A stretch of 56,748 nt of DNA from Thermoplasmatales archaeon SW_10_69_26. Lineage in GTDB: Archaea; Thermoplasmatota; SW-10-69-26. The notes below the pieces were generated by a model. It saw only the letters and a list, made by a program, of their open reading frames with translations, searched no databases and was not told the origin of the DNA. Position 1 is the first letter of the stretch. Every line of letters starts with the position of its first letter. Shown here one piece after another: positions 46,565 to 54,290 of the stretch. The position numbers were made by a program, and so were the translations under genes. Where the stretch lies: assembly GCA_003009755.1 (NCBI GenBank), contig PXUB01000041.1:1-56748 (forward strand), written 5' to 3'.

Positions 46565-49006
46565 ATGGAGGCTGCATCCTCGTCCACGCTGGCGGCGGCG
46601 TTGGCGTTGCTCATGGTGGCCGTCCCCCTCGCCAACGCGACGGCCGCGAACGCCGACCCCACGGGAACCGCGCTCGACGCCACGGAACCGACGTTCGTCT
46701 CCGAACCGTTGCCCCGCGGGGACGTGGAGCCCACCGGCGAGGTCACGTTCACCCCGCCGGCGCCGATCGCCGTCGACGGCTCACTCCACGACTGGCAGGG
46801 CCAAGCCACCCGGTTGGGCGGGACCACGGTGCTCGACGCCGGCGAGCTCGTCTACCAGGGGTTCGCCTTCGACGACCACGGCGCCGACGACGGCAAGGAC
46901 GCCGAGCGCCTCGAGACGCTGGGCCCCGCCTACGAGGCCAACCGGCGCACCGAGCGTATCGAAGCCCTCGCCCAGGCCGCCGACGAGCAGTTCGGCGCCC
47001 CCGATCCGACCGACGGCGTGCTCGTCAGCCCCGCACACTACGGCAACGCCGATCTACCGGGGGACCGCCAAGGCCACGCCGACCTGCTCGAGACCCGCCT
47101 GACCGCCCGCGAGGAGACCGCCTACATCGCCGCCCGCACCGCCAGCATGACCGACCCCGGCGCGCTCGCGCTGCTCGTGCTCGCCGACACCGAGCCCGGC
47201 CCGACCGACGAGGCCCGCGCGGTCCCCTTCGACAGCGGGATCACCACCACGGAGGCCGACCGAGCCCTCCTCGTCACGGCCGAGGGCGTCTGGCAGGCCG
47301 ACCTCGCCGAGGGCACGACCCAGCCGCTCGCCAGCGTCGACGTCGCCGTCGACGCGTCGGGGTACGCCAACGCGATCGAGGCCGCCCTCCCGCTCCAGGC
47401 GATCGCTGCCGACGCCGACGGTGAAAGCGAGCTCGCCCTCGCGGTCGGAGCCGGCCTCCACGCCGGCGACGGGACGCTGGTCGACGTCGCCACCGGCGAG
47501 GCCGAAGCCAACGTCGTGGACGTCGCCTTCCGCCACGAGGACCACGTCTCCAACTGGATGGACCGCGACCAGGCGCTCAGCCTGCTCGAAGGCGACATGG
47601 ACACCTTCGCCCGCGTCCCCGTCCAGGACCTCCAGACCGGCAAGTCTCTGGCCTGGCAACCGACGCCCGGCTACCACGAACGCCTGTTCGAGAGCTCGAC
47701 CAACATCTCGCAGGAGTCCGACCGTGAGGGGCTGGTCCAGCACTACGGCCTGTACCTGCCCAGCGACTGGGAGCCCGGAGAGGAGCACCCGTTGACGTTC
47801 TGGCTGCACTGGCGGGGCGGCACCGCGCACCAGGCGGCCGCGTGGACGCCGCGCGCGGTCGAGCAGCTCGGCGAGGAGCGCGAGCCCTCGAACGTCGTCG
47901 TCAGTCCCCGCGGGCGCGGCACGTCCACTTGGTACGCCGGCGCCGGCCACCTCGACGTGCTGCAGGTCTACGAGGACGTGCACGAGACGCTGGCGATCGA
48001 CGAGGACCGACGCTACCTGTCCGGGTACTCGATGGGCGGCTACGGCTCCTACCTCTTCGGCCTGCTGTACCCCGACCAGTTCGCCGCCGCCTACCCGATC
48101 AGCGGCGCGATGACGATCGGCCTCTGGGCGGGCATCACGGAGTACGGGACCGACACGCAGGGCGCCAACGGCGGCGACGGCAACCTCGAGAACACCCACC
48201 GCCTCGTCGAGAACGCCCGCAACCTCCCCTACGTCATCCACCACGGGACCAACGACGAGCTCGTGCCCGTCACCGGCGTCCAGCGCATGGCGGCGACGTT
48301 CGCCGACCACGGCTACGAGTACCGCTTCTACCGCTTCCCCGGCTACGAGCACTTCACGCAAGCCATCGTCGACCAGTGGACCGAGGGCGCCGACTACCTC
48401 GACCGGCACGTCCGGGACCAGACCCCGCCCGAGGTGACGTACAAGCGCGTGCCCGCGCTCGAGACCGCGATCGAGACGCTCAACCAGCGCGAGGCCGACA
48501 TCGACCTCGACACCGACGGCGCCTACTGGGTCGACGACGTCCAGCTGCGAGCGGTCGACACCACCGATCCGACCGTGCACGGCCAGGTCGACGCCCGCAG
48601 CCACGCGATCCCCAACCGCGCGGTGACCACGCCCGAAGCCGGCGCCGCCAGCCCCTCTCACGACACGCCCTACGTCATGGACGGACTAGCGCACACGCCG
48701 GCCCCCTGCGAGACCGACGTCGTCTGCCCGCTCGTCGATCCCGTCGCCAACCGGCTCACCGTCGACCTCGCCAACGTGGCCTCCGCCAGCGTGCACGCCG
48801 AGGACGCCCGGTTGGACACAACTGATACCCCGCTCGCGGTCGAGCTCGCGACCGACGGGTCGGCCACGCTCACGCTCGCCGGCGACTGGACCTGCACGGA
48901 CGGGCAACACGACAGCCCCGCGAACGTCGCGCTCACCGTGGAGCCCGACGCTGTCACGATCGACGCCACGCAGGCCGGCAGCTACACGGTGCACGTCTGC
49001 GTCTAA
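46565..49006 (+). CDS. secreted alpha/beta-hydrolase (esterase/peptidase-like) with N-terminal substrate-binding-like domain
   Basis: 813 residues. Signal peptide within 1-28 (LAAALALLMVAVPLANATA). Residues about 60-360 begin with PIAVDGSLHDWQGQATRLGG, a CBM9/DOMON-like opening found in surface binding domains. Residues about 395-620 are an alpha/beta-hydrolase of the feruloyl-esterase/PHB-depolymerase-like kind: oxyanion strand LTFWLHWRGG, nucleophile elbow YLSGYSMGGYGSYLFG (Ser), GTNDELVPVTG (Asp), FPGYEHFTQ (His). The rest is beta-rich, ending in a small Cys-containing domain (CETDVVCPL; WTCTDGQHD; VHVC). No C-terminal anchor. Probably degrades an external ester or peptide; the actual substrate cannot be read from the sequence. 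Confidence 0.75.
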   Translation: MEAASSSTLAAALALLMVAVPLANATAANADPTGTALDATEPTFVSEPLPRGDVEPTGEVTFTPPAPIAVDGSLHDWQGQATRLGGTTVLDAGELVYQGFAFDDHGADDGKDAERLETLGPAYEANRRTERIEALAQAADEQFGAPDPTDGVLVSPAHYGNADLPGDRQGHADLLETRLTAREETAYIAARTASMTDPGALALLVLADTEPGPTDEARAVPFDSGITTTEADRALLVTAEGVWQADLAEGTTQPLASVDVAVDASGYANAIEAALPLQAIAADADGESELALAVGAGLHAGDGTLVDVATGEAEANVVDVAFRHEDHVSNWMDRDQALSLLEGDMDTFARVPVQDLQTGKSLAWQPTPGYHERLFESSTNISQESDREGLVQHYGLYLPSDWEPGEEHPLTFWLHWRGGTAHQAAAWTPRAVEQLGEEREPSNVVVSPRGRGTSTWYAGAGHLDVLQVYEDVHETLAIDEDRRYLSGYSMGGYGSYLFGLLYPDQFAAAYPISGAMTIGLWAGITEYGTDTQGANGGDGNLENTHRLVENARNLPYVIHHGTNDELVPVTGVQRMAATFADHGYEYRFYRFPGYEHFTQAIVDQWTEGADYLDRHVRDQTPPEVTYKRVPALETAIETLNQREADIDLDTDGAYWVDDVQLRAVDTTDPTVHGQVDARSHAIPNRAVTTPEAGAASPSHDTPYVMDGLAHTPAPCETDVVCPLVDPVANRLTVDLANVASASVHAEDARLDTTDTPLAVELATDGSATLTLAGDWTCTDGQHDSPANVALTVEPDAVTIDATQAGSYTVHVCV

Positions 49007-50199: not shown

Positions 50200-50502
50200 A
50201 CCGCACCAGCGACTACGGGCCCCAGTGCACGGAGGACACCGGCGGGTTCTCCCTCGAGACGTCTTTCACCCACAGTTGGCAGGAGGCCTGCGAGGGCGAC
50301 ACGATCGTGACCGGCTACACCTTCGAGGTCGGCAACGCGGCCGGCGCGCTCGGCGGCGGTGACATCTTCCCCGGTCTTCGAGCCGCAGGACTCCCCCTTC
50401 GACTTCGGTGACGGCACCCACACCTGAATCGACTCCGATCCCTTCGACAACGACACCGACCGCAACTCCGACGAGTCCAGCGCCCCGCCCACGGGCGAGT
50501 GA
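50200..50502 (+). pseudogene. truncated copy of the C-terminal domain of the 800-residue secreted protein
   Basis: Reads TSDYGPQCTEDTGGFSLETS then GDTIVTGYTFEVGN, closely matching residues about 702-745 of the gene at 51888-54290. A frame change near 50370 and a TGA in place of the Trp codon (GTHT-stop-IDSDPFDNDTD) interrupt it, after which the ending SSAPPTGE and its stop are still present. Only about 100 residues of the 800 remain. A hairpin CCCTAGAGGG with a pyrimidine/T-rich tract follows, like the terminator of the intact gene. The 240 bp before it contain no gene. Confidence 0.8.
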
Positions 50503-50561
50503 CCGCGGGCCAACCCTAGAGGGCTTTTCCCTCTTCCTCTTCTTTTGGTTATAGCATTCGG

Positions 50562-50615
50562 CTTAGATAAACGAATAACTTATTTAGGTGAGAGTTGTCA
50601 TTCTGATTCGGAGGT
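50562..50615 (+). promoter_or_regulatory. AT-rich promoter and Shine-Dalgarno of the cysteine-rich peptide gene
   Basis: TAGATAAAC at 50564-50572 and ATAACTTATTTAG at 50575-50587 are TATA candidates in a clearly AT-rich stretch. GGAGGT at 50610-50615 lies 6 nt before an ATA codon (50622), ideal spacing for a ribosome-binding site. Confidence 0.55.
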
Positions 50616-50621
50616 CGAACC

Positions 50622-50858
50622 ATAAACGCGAAGTCGATACTTGCCACGGCTGGACTGAGCCTGATCATCCTCGGTTTCTTCGCAGGCTCTGCGACAGCAG
50701 CTGAATCAGGAACCTTTGAGGCGGGAGATGGCTCAGAACAATTGACGGTTGCGACATGCGCTGCTGGAGACGAGCTTTGCGGTTGTGTTTCCACCTCTTG
50801 GGCTTGTGGTGAGAACTCGTGCCTTGCCGCAATTTTCGGTCAGGGGTTCGCTTGTTAG
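50622..50858 (+). CDS. small secreted six-cysteine peptide, apparent ATA start
   Basis: 78 codons, missed by standard gene calling because the frame has no ATG, GTG or TTG start; TGA at 50604 closes it upstream. ATA at 50622 follows GGAGGT by 6 nt. The product has a textbook signal peptide: NAK, hydrophobic SILATAGLSLIILGFFAG, then SATA-A cleavage near residue 26. The mature part of about 50 residues is acidic and then cysteine-rich, with Cys at 46, 53, 55, 62, 67 and 78 (last residue), e.g. TCAAGDELCGC and WACGENSCLAAIF. Size, signal and Cys pattern recall halocin-type antimicrobial peptides such as the C8 group, but no homology can be claimed from memory. Base composition is lower in GC than neighbours and a broken IS6 transposase lies 100 bp downstream. 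The start might also be an ATG lost by mutation or sequencing error. Confidence 0.6.
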   Translation: MNAKSILATAGLSLIILGFFAGSATAAESGTFEAGDGSEQLTVATCAAGDELCGCVSTSWACGENSCLAAIFGQGFAC

Positions 50859-50963
50859 GGGTCTGAGGGATACAATAACCTGACTTCTATCTGCGCGGAA
50901 CCTTGCCTATCATCCTAAAACGTGCATTACCTTGTCAGGTCCCCCTTCCCACCGCTGGCATGT
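50859..50963. other. no feature recognised between peptide gene and transposase
   Basis: About 100 bp, AT-richer than the flanks at first, with no clear terminator or terminal inverted repeat that I could identify. Confidence 0.3.
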
Positions 50964-51700
50964 TCAGCGGGTGGACGGGGCCTGGTTGAACAGCCACGCG
51001 AACCCTTCCGCCCACGCCTGCCCCTCCTCAGCGGAGGTGTTCACCGGCCAGTGTCTGCGGAACGGGCCGATGCGGTCCTTGAGCAACCCGATCCAGGTTT
51101 CCACGGTGTTGCGGACACCGCCGCTGGTTACCTGCCAGTCCAGGCTCAGCGCGGTCAACGGCCAAGGATACCATACGCCGCGGTCCACATGGATACCGGC
51201 CGGTTGTCGCACCGGGCCGACACGCCCTTCACGAAGCCCATCGCCTCCACGCTGCTGCGGCCCGGACTGGCCTCGACATGGACGAGTTGCTCGATATCAG
51301 GGTCGATGGCAGCCGAGAGGAACAGCTCGGTGAGGTGATCGCCCGCGTCCTTGTCGCACTTCTCCGACCATTCGGACCGGGGTTGCTCGATGTGGAGGCT
51401 GGGTTCGTCGATGACGAGGCGTTCGTGGCGTTGGATGGATCGCTGGCGGAACAAGGGACTCGCGCGGCGGTACCAAGCGCTGATCGGGTTGTGCGTGACC
51501 GGTTCAGCAAGCAGCGACACGAGTTGGCTGGTTCTCCGGCAACTGCGGCTCGCGTGGTGCAGCAAAGGCCTAGCGCGCGGGTTTCGGGTTGCTTGCGGTC
51601 GCGGTCGAAAAGGTCTTCTTGGGTGAGGCGCTGGGTGAGCTTGCCGAGCAGTGCGTCGTTTCGGTGGAACTTAACGGGCCCTGCTCGGCGTTCTTCCTCG
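50964..51700 (-). pseudogene. IS6-like DDE transposase, two frameshifts
   Basis: Minus-strand coding in three successive frames. Frame 1 (to about 51560): LTQEDLFDRDRKQPETRALG. Frame 2: LVIDEPSLHIE with the first catalytic Asp, then LFLSAAIDPDIEQLVHVEAS and SSVEAMGFVKGVSARCDNRP. Frame 3 (from about 51195): IHVDRGVWYPWPLTALSLDW with the second Asp, and GVRNTVETWIGLLKDRIGPF with the catalytic Glu, ending FAWLFN. Order and motifs fit archaeal IS6-type transposases (about 200-230 residues). All three acidic residues survive, so the decay is recent or due to programmed or sequencing shifts. No terminal inverted repeats were found by eye. Confidence 0.75.
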
Positions 51701-51887
51701 TTGTTGTGGTTCGTGTTCGGTTGGAGGCCGCGCTTAACTAGACAGCCCGGCCTCAACGGACGACCAAGGGTTGAAACGTCGATGTCCGAATCCCGCCACC
51801 ACGAACCGTTGGGAGGTCACCCAGTCCAGAGCTTCGATCTGTGAGGCTCGGGGCTGGGCGAGCCCGATACGGTTGCGGAGGCATACC

Positions 51888-54290
51888 ATGGGACGCCAAC
51901 GTCTTGCCATCATCATCGCGTTCGTCACGATCGTGGGCGGGATCCCCGCCGTCGGAGCTGAACACCTGAGCGTCGGGTACGAGGACGCGCCCGGCGTCGC
52001 TCCCGACGAGGCTCCGGAGGACAAGTCGGTGGACGCCGACGCCTACGACCGGGGGACCAAGACCGAGTGCTTCGCGTCGAACGGCTCCTCGGCCGACGAG
52101 ATCCAGGAGTCCCGCGACGCCGACCCCTTCTGCGGGGAGCTCCGCTACCAGGACGATAACGAGCTCGCCCAGGAGAGCCCGAAGGATCAGACGTTCCTCT
52201 CGGACGAGATCGGGACCTTCGACGTGCGCGCAACGCGAAGCTACATGCTCGCGCACGAGGCTCGCCTTATCCACCAGGACGAGCAAGTGGGCGCCTGCCA
52301 GCCCTTCTGCGAGGACAACCTGGCCGGGCAGCTCGCCTGGGAAGCCGTCCACACGGCCGGCTCCGAGGCTGGTCTCACGGACAACGCTGGTGATGCGGAC
52401 GACAAGGAGCGCGAGGACCGCCTGCAGATCTACGGCGCCGACATCCACACGCCGACGGCCCGGTACGCGCTGCAGGAGGCCGGCACGCACGAGATGGACG
52501 GCTGGTTGATCCCGGGCACCACGCGCTCCTTCGTCGCCTTCCTCGAGGACGGTGAGGGCGACCCGATCGGCGAAGACCGGCTCTCGACGATGGTCGGGGA
52601 TGCCGACCTTCCGCAGGGCGCGATCCCCAGCATCTGTGGCTGGACCCCGGGTCGTGACTTCGGCGGCACAGGCGACGCCGCCACCTGCGAGGTCGAGTTC
52701 GAGTTCGAGGGCAACCGGGAGCAACGCAGCGACTTCAAGGGCGGCTACAACGACAAGTGTGCCTCTGCAGGGTACGTGTGCGGGGCCAGTGCCGGCGGCG
52801 CCTGGTACGCCAACTTCGACCTTCTTGCGCCGTTCGCCACAACGGACTATGTCAAATGGCACTGGGTCGTTGCTCCGACGCTACCTGAGTGCGGGGTGCA
52901 GGAGCCTGGCTTCCAAACGGAGACCGACACCCAGCAGCCGTTCTTGGCCCACGATGTCGACGTGTACACGCCCGCGACGGCGCTGGCCAACTCCGAGGAC
53001 GCCCGCAACTCCCCGGTCGTCGCCGACACGGCCCTGGAGGTCGGCACTACGCAGGCTGAGGAGGTGCTCGAAGACGGGATCGACGCGCTTCCGGACACGC
53101 CCGTGGACGACCCGCTCCCCGAGGACACCCCGGCCGACGAGGTCTCGACGTCGGCCTTCCTCAAGGGTGACCGCGTCGAGCCCAACGCAGCGCCCGATGC
53201 GAATCCACTCGAGGACACGAGCCAGAGCCTGCTCCCCGACGAGGACCTGACTCGATCGGTCGACGACCCCTGCGAACAGCTGCAGGGCTCCGAGACCGAG
53301 GACACGATCGACCCCTGGGTCGACCTCATCGACGGTGAAACGGTCGAAGAGGCGACGACTGGCGTCCAGGAGCTCGCCGAAACAGAGACCGGCGTGTCAT
53401 CCCAAACACCCGGGCTCTACGGCGATGAAGCTCCGAGCCACGACGATGACAACCATCCCGGCCCGGAGATCTACCACACCTCGGGCAACGTCGGCATGTT
53501 CACCGACAAGGACGACGACGGGGCCTACGACACGCTCCCCGGCGACACCGTCACCTTCAGCGGCTCGAAGCTGGATTCGGCCCAGATCGAGGAGGTCGGC
53601 GCCTACCCGATGATCTGGGACGTTCGCGTCCAGGAGACACAGGACGGGTTCGAGCTCGACGAGGGCGCCTCCGGTTGCCAGGTCAACGGTATCCCGCTGA
53701 CGAAGGGTGCCGCCCAGGCCGGCTACGGCGGGGAGACGGGCCTGTTCCAGGCCGTCTACCTGCAGGAGCCGACCGTCGTCTTGGACGACGCCTCTGGCGA
53801 GGCGACCCCTTACGTTGAGGGCAACAACATCTACCTCTTCCTCAGCAACAGCGCCCGCACGATGTACGACTCGGACACCGACACGGAGCTCGACGGCCAG
53901 ATCGACTCGGTGCTCGCCGAGCTTTCCGCGTACGCGAAGGGCCAGGTCGGCACCGCGCCTGATGTCGTCAGACCCGGCGACGAATTCGGCCGCTCCTCGG
54001 ACTACGGCCCGCAGTGCATCGAGGACACTGGCGGCTTCTCGCTGGAGCTGTCCTTCACGCACACCTGCCAGGTCGACTGCTCCGGGGACACGATCGTGAC
54101 CGGCTACACCTTCGAGGCCGACCGCCCTGAGGGCACGATCGGCGGCGGTGACCTCTTGCCCGTCTTCGAGCCGCAGAACGAGGGCTACGACTTCGGTGAA
54201 GGCACCCACACCTGGATCGACGTCGATCCCTTCGACAACGACTCCGACCGCAACGCCGACGGGTCCAGCGCCCCGCCCACGGGCGAGTAG
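51888..54290 (+). CDS. large secreted acidic protein of unknown family
   Basis: 800 residues; ATG preceded by GGAGG at 6 nt. Signal peptide: RQRLAIIIAFVTIVGGIPAVGA. The mature protein is very acidic with scattered cysteines (e.g. TECFASNGS, FCGELRYQDD, GACQPFCEDN), a low-complexity Asp/Glu/Pro stretch at about 410-480, and a C-terminal domain with SDYGPQCIEDTGGFSLELSF, GDTIVTGYTFEAD and a final DPFDNDSDRNADGSSAPPTG. An aspartate-rich ending DxDNDSDRNAD resembles a calcium-binding loop. There is no membrane anchor. No family recognised. A broken duplicate of its last 100 residues lies 1.4 kb upstream, with the small peptide gene and transposase between them. Confidence 0.75.
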   Translation: MGRQRLAIIIAFVTIVGGIPAVGAEHLSVGYEDAPGVAPDEAPEDKSVDADAYDRGTKTECFASNGSSADEIQESRDADPFCGELRYQDDNELAQESPKDQTFLSDEIGTFDVRATRSYMLAHEARLIHQDEQVGACQPFCEDNLAGQLAWEAVHTAGSEAGLTDNAGDADDKEREDRLQIYGADIHTPTARYALQEAGTHEMDGWLIPGTTRSFVAFLEDGEGDPIGEDRLSTMVGDADLPQGAIPSICGWTPGRDFGGTGDAATCEVEFEFEGNREQRSDFKGGYNDKCASAGYVCGASAGGAWYANFDLLAPFATTDYVKWHWVVAPTLPECGVQEPGFQTETDTQQPFLAHDVDVYTPATALANSEDARNSPVVADTALEVGTTQAEEVLEDGIDALPDTPVDDPLPEDTPADEVSTSAFLKGDRVEPNAAPDANPLEDTSQSLLPDEDLTRSVDDPCEQLQGSETEDTIDPWVDLIDGETVEEATTGVQELAETETGVSSQTPGLYGDEAPSHDDDNHPGPEIYHTSGNVGMFTDKDDDGAYDTLPGDTVTFSGSKLDSAQIEEVGAYPMIWDVRVQETQDGFELDEGASGCQVNGIPLTKGAAQAGYGGETGLFQAVYLQEPTVVLDDASGEATPYVEGNNIYLFLSNSARTMYDSDTDTELDGQIDSVLAELSAYAKGQVGTAPDVVRPGDEFGRSSDYGPQCIEDTGGFSLELSFTHTCQVDCSGDTIVTGYTFEADRPEGTIGGGDLLPVFEPQNEGYDFGEGTHTWIDVDPFDNDSDRNADGSSAPPTGE

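Follow-up and report, generated by a model that had tools for sequence, protein, structure and literature searches.

A 78-codon reading frame encoding a predicted secreted peptide with six cysteines was found in a low-GC tract of the analyzed DNA (56,748 nucleotides of Thermoplasmatales archaeon SW_10_69_26, hereafter the window), and it very probably represents a real gene, either present or past. Our preferred reading, held tentatively and at somewhat under an even chance, is that the frame was acquired as a gene for a Sec-exported, disulfide-rich, acidic peptide of ~5 kDa, and that this gene is now decaying after loss of its ATG start codon. The initial annotation had proposed an overlooked, halocin-like candidate peptide gene, starting at AUA or at an ATG mutated by one base, in a location consistent with transfer. 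The secreted cysteine-rich frame, the foreign-looking low-GC DNA and the transposase remnant of this account are borne out by our analysis, whereas the halocin link and the initiation at AUA are not.

The window is part of a 62.2-kb contig (C41) in a draft assembly of 2.8 Mb, which comprises 49 contigs and is 95% complete with 2% contamination. The host is archaeal, as its 16S rRNA scores 1498 bits with the archaeal model. Its proteins are strongly acidic and poor in lysine (median D+E 16.5%, K 1.5%), as in salt-in halophiles, and thus the earlier description of the source as a halophilic archaeon is reasonable. The frame opens with ATA (50622-50624), ends with TAG (50856-50858), and is translated as INAKSILATAGLSLIILGFFAGSATAAESGTFEAGDGSEQLTVATCAAGDELCGCVSTSWACGENSCLAAIFGQGFAC followed by the stop. 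The hexamer GGAGGT precedes the ATA by 6 bases; because the archaeal 16S rRNA ends with ...GGATCACCTCCTA, its exact partner, this hexamer is a canonical Shine-Dalgarno (SD) sequence here. An in-frame TGA closes the frame on the upstream side, and no in-frame ATG, GTG, or TTG occurs ahead of the signal peptide. This layout of frame, SD, spacing and upstream TGA, with no canonical start, agrees in full with the initial description, as does the statement that standard gene callers miss the frame, which is true of those that demand ATG, GTG, or TTG. A strong SD stands before the first possible start in ~14% of long native genes vs. ~5% at non-start codons; thus, SD-led initiation is present in this genome, though it is not the rule.

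Table 1. Features in and around the low-GC tract of the window.
Feature	Position	Strand	Basis
C-terminal stump of a broken paralogue of the 51888-54290 secreted protein	50201..50503	+	sequence comparison
Low-GC tract with the peptide frame; single occurrence in the genome	50516..50948		GC 50.6%
TTATTTA, possible TATA box, ~40 bases 5' of ATA	50580..50586	+	sequence reading, inference
In-frame TGA, upstream closure of the frame	50604..50606	+	sequence
Shine-Dalgarno GGAGGT	50610..50615	+	complementary to own 16S 3' end
Six-Cys secreted peptide frame, ATA as first codon	50622..50858	+	sequence; shuffle tests; composition
Predicted Sec-type signal peptide, residues 1-26	50622..50699	+	sequence; home-made score
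In-frame stretch beyond TAG, GSEGYNNLTSICAEPCLSS, then TAA; two more Cys	50859..50918	+	sequence
IS6-like insertion sequence, frameshifted transposase	50953..51747	-	ends from copies on C36, C37, C38
Intact secreted acidic protein, ~800 aa, genome-specific paralogue family	51888..54290	+	sequence comparison

The predicted signal peptide, INAKSILATAGLSLIILGFFAGSATA, combines a basic n-region, a hydrophobic core and a small-X-small cleavage site, and its value of 2.53 on a home-made hydrophobicity score is matched by few ORFs; the call was made from the sequence together with this score. Cleavage is likely after residue 26 or 27, which would leave an acidic mature part (AESGTFEAGDGSEQLTVATCAAGDELCGCVSTSWACGENSCLAAIFGQGFAC) of 51-52 residues and 5.0-5.1 kDa, with a pI of about 4 and without Lys or Arg. 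Six Cys residues (positions 46, 53, 55, 62, 67, and 78, the latter being the last residue) make an even number in this short mature part, and we infer from the sequence that the peptide is exported by Sec and carries three disulfides. The signal peptide and the six-cysteine mature part ending in Cys are therefore present as originally noted. An AlphaFold2 model built from the single sequence only has a mean pLDDT of 49.6 and a pTM of 0.25, and is thus uninformative as to the fold.

It is improbable that the frame is merely a product of chance in AT-rich intergenic DNA. Its length is ordinary and provides no evidence, since 59% of dinucleotide-shuffled versions of the 433-base tract contain an open frame of at least 78 codons; the flat GC content across codon positions (0.54/0.60/0.51) and the absence of a homologue from all collections searched would also suit a chance origin. 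Against it, a signal-peptide-like frame arises in 71 of 6000 tract shuffles (1.2%), one that also has at least five Cys in 2 of 6000 (0.03%), and one that is additionally preceded by an SD in none of the 6000. Composition marks the frame independently: among open 78-codon frames from the shuffles, an excess of D+E over K+R of at least six is seen in 0.6%, and this excess combined with at least six Cys in only 0.03%. The peptide frame is also the only stop-free and the only clearly acidic one among the six reading frames, the other five being interrupted and four of these basic, which is the expectation for coding DNA in an acidic proteome. Background statistics were taken from 454 kb of the same genome, sampled as stretches, where it is the single small ORF that unites ATA, SD and a signal peptide, with ~0.1 expected from the non-start-codon rate. 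The criteria were fixed after the frame was seen, so that these chance figures are somewhat optimistic. The shuffle tests, the joint acidity and cysteine content, and the uniqueness of the ATA-SD-signal peptide combination are the grounds on which a coding origin is considered highly likely.

A homology search with the 78-residue translation, proposed in the initial annotation as a check, returned no homologue in genomes, Pfam, NCBIfam, PHROGs, or PDB. The genomes searched were the host's own and 390 of the phylum, among which the closest are one from the same family and five others from the same class, the genus itself being not represented. Exact-word scans of GTDB and IMG/VR, as well as phage and plasmid collections, also gave no homologue, and neither did PADLOC give a convincing match. 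NCBIfam and PHROGs had no match at E ≤ 10, and the only Pfam match was Meg (E 0.015, under the cut-off). Distant relatives would escape the GTDB and IMG/VR scans, which rely on identical eight-residue words; the search of the 390 genomes is more sensitive. Matches with E 0.001-0.02 to the whole peptide and its mature part in four genomes (G060, G086, G029, and G200) were rejected as chance-level, being non-secreted frames, frames with a signal-peptide-like stretch alone in common, or unrelated frames. Small Cys-rich peptides diverge rapidly, so that the lack of homologues is compatible with function.

Base composition and codon usage suggest that the peptide gene was horizontally acquired. The GC content of the tract contrasts with ~70% for the genome, and values as low are found in only 20 of 8886 overlapping sampled windows, the lowest twelve of which fall within one other island. 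In the peptide frame, 21 of the 78 codons are rare in native genes and the codon-adaptation value is 0.23, which together with the low GC content points to the foreign origin assumed in the decay reading. When the tract DNA was compared with phages and plasmids, the sole match covered 31 bases and is attributable to chance; no donor was found in the collections searched, and Rfam revealed no RNA gene in the tract. The low-GC patch and the adjacent transposase remnant of the initial annotation are thus both real, while the transfer that it proposed is supported by the foreign composition and lacks a donor in the searched collections. As a separate observation, contig C19 carries a low-GC island (50-58%) at ~68.9-71.9 kb (L057 8853-11868) with adjacent HerA and SIR2 genes (PADLOC E 3.6e-139 and 2e-99, respectively), a candidate HerA-SIR2 anti-phage system.

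The tract lies in a turnover spot with gene debris on both flanks. On its left, the stump corresponds to the C-terminal ~100 codons of a tandem paralogue that is now broken, which suggests that two large secreted proteins were formerly encoded in tandem at this site, an arrangement still present on contig C42. By sequence comparison, this family appears to be expanded in the genome, with about ten large (~800 aa) acidic members that are 33-44% identical to the window copy and are encoded on contigs C20, C3, C5, C42 (two in tandem), C47, C19, C7, C22, and C37. Neither the same-family genome nor the five other same-class genomes yielded a member of it, and it has no match in Pfam and NCBIfam. 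Upstream of the stump, the window also encodes a secreted protein with an alpha/beta-hydrolase domain, esterase or S9 peptidase-like (46565-49006). To the right of the tract, the frameshifted transposase is near the IS6 family (NF033587, E 8.5e-21, under the curated cut-off), and had no match in the GTDB exact-word scan. Its element resembles haloarchaeal IS6-family elements in the transposase family, but differs in that the nearest named relatives, located on haloarchaeal plasmids, are only 26-39% identical and that the copy adjoining the peptide frame is disrupted. Further IS6-like copies are present on contigs C38, C36, and C37 (L038, L039, L040, and L041), two with open transposase frames and two partial.

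In the preferred reading, the start codon at 50622 would originally have been ATG, and the peptide would have been exported by Sec, cleaved after residue 26 or 27, and stabilized extracellularly by three disulfides; its most plausible targets would have been competitors or the cell surface. Action on competitors is a common role of acquired small secreted peptides, and may have been that of this one. A change of ATG to ATA would have rendered the gene silent, or reduced its output to a small fraction of the former rate via the strong SD. This reading agrees with the paralogue stump upstream and the broken insertion sequence downstream, with the absence of a canonical start although the SD and its spacing are perfect for one, and with the SD frequency before ATA (13 of the 331 small ORFs with ATA in the 454 kb sampled), which is that of non-start codons (3-5%). 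It is further favored by the absence of conservation and by a possible second lesion at the TAG. On the other side, the frame shows no clear lesion other than its start, and none of the genomes searched holds a relative that would reveal the original start or length.

The same intact frame, together with the perfect SD spacing, the possible TATA box and the coding features beyond chance (signal peptide with Cys and SD, acidity), would fit a living gene that is initiated at AUA with the aid of the strong SD, exporting at a low level a small disulfide-rich peptide, for example an antimicrobial or signalling one. AUA with a strong SD is functional in some bacteria, and in Staphylococcus aureus AUA with an extended SD provides ~10-30% of AUG activity (PMC13009471), which speaks for such a gene and against decay. 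We nevertheless consider this explanation doubtful: the rest of the 454-kb sample gives no indication that ATA is used as a start, no conservation among the genomes searched points to selection, the surroundings are in decay, and neither an immunity nor a processing gene adjoins. With SD unenriched before ATA and these surroundings being gene debris, AUA initiation is no more likely than the decay of a gene that has lost its ATG, and may be less so. The more specific proposal of a working AUA-initiated six-Cys peptide that is exported by Sec, belongs to a new family, and represents a candidate antimicrobial with low output due to its start codon is unlikely.

Two other explanations concern the ends of the frame. 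A living gene with an intact ATG, in which the A at 50624 is a one-base consensus error or a minor strain variant, would count against decay and is conceivable in a draft assembly of this fragmentation, completeness and contamination, ATA being one base from a textbook start; yet consensus substitution errors are rare and position 50624 is outside any homopolymer, so that we give it little credence. It is more improbable still that a longer secreted protein has decayed here and that the frame corresponds to its N-terminus, with TAG as a nonsense change and the rest removed or displaced by the insertion sequence. The continuation beyond TAG, with its two additional Cys before TAA, is possibly former coding sequence, and the insertion sequence remnant starts ~35 bases beyond this TAA; however, chance readily produces open stretches of 19 codons with two Cys in this tract (46 of 752 windows), and the 78-residue form already ends in Cys with an even Cys count. 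Pyrrolysine readthrough of the TAG was rejected, as no PylS scored above the cut-off.

If the frame is translated, its product would be an orphan among archaeal secreted peptides, of a kind that the rules of standard annotation exclude, and it would document AUA initiation after a strong SD in an archaeon. An untranslated frame would illustrate the gain and loss of small secreted-peptide genes in insertion-rich spots. In either case, archaeal lineages that are poorly sampled should be searched for small exported Cys-rich peptides with tolerance for unusual starts.

The microhalocins (C8, S8, and R1) are secreted peptides below 10 kDa of salt-adapted archaea, of which C8 is Cys-rich. The predicted peptide is alike in its small size, predicted secretion, salt-adapted archaeal host and, as in C8, cysteine content, and it may act in a microhalocin-like way; it has no sequence match to microhalocins in any library searched, and the halocin-like label proposed initially found no halocin or other convincing match in NCBIfam, Pfam, PHROGs, and PDB. 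Sec-exported bacteriocins and small disulfide-rich secreted peptides likewise have a short precursor, a Sec-type signal and a Cys-rich mature part, but the peptide described here is acidic, has no Lys or Arg in its mature part, no adjoining immunity or transport gene, and no homology to them. Halocin C8, the halocin that is best described, is made as a 283-residue, Tat-exported precursor that is also the source of an immunity peptide (PMC11509114), whereas the present frame has 78 codons and a Sec-type signal; because it has no model match, no twin arginine and no immunity part, the predicted peptide falls outside the halocin C8 family. The present case, in an archaeon and known from sequence alone, differs from S. 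aureus infC, ccpN, and citZ, whose AUA starts were shown by ribosome profiling and reporters (PMC13009471), but shares with them an AUA codon placed behind a strong SD.
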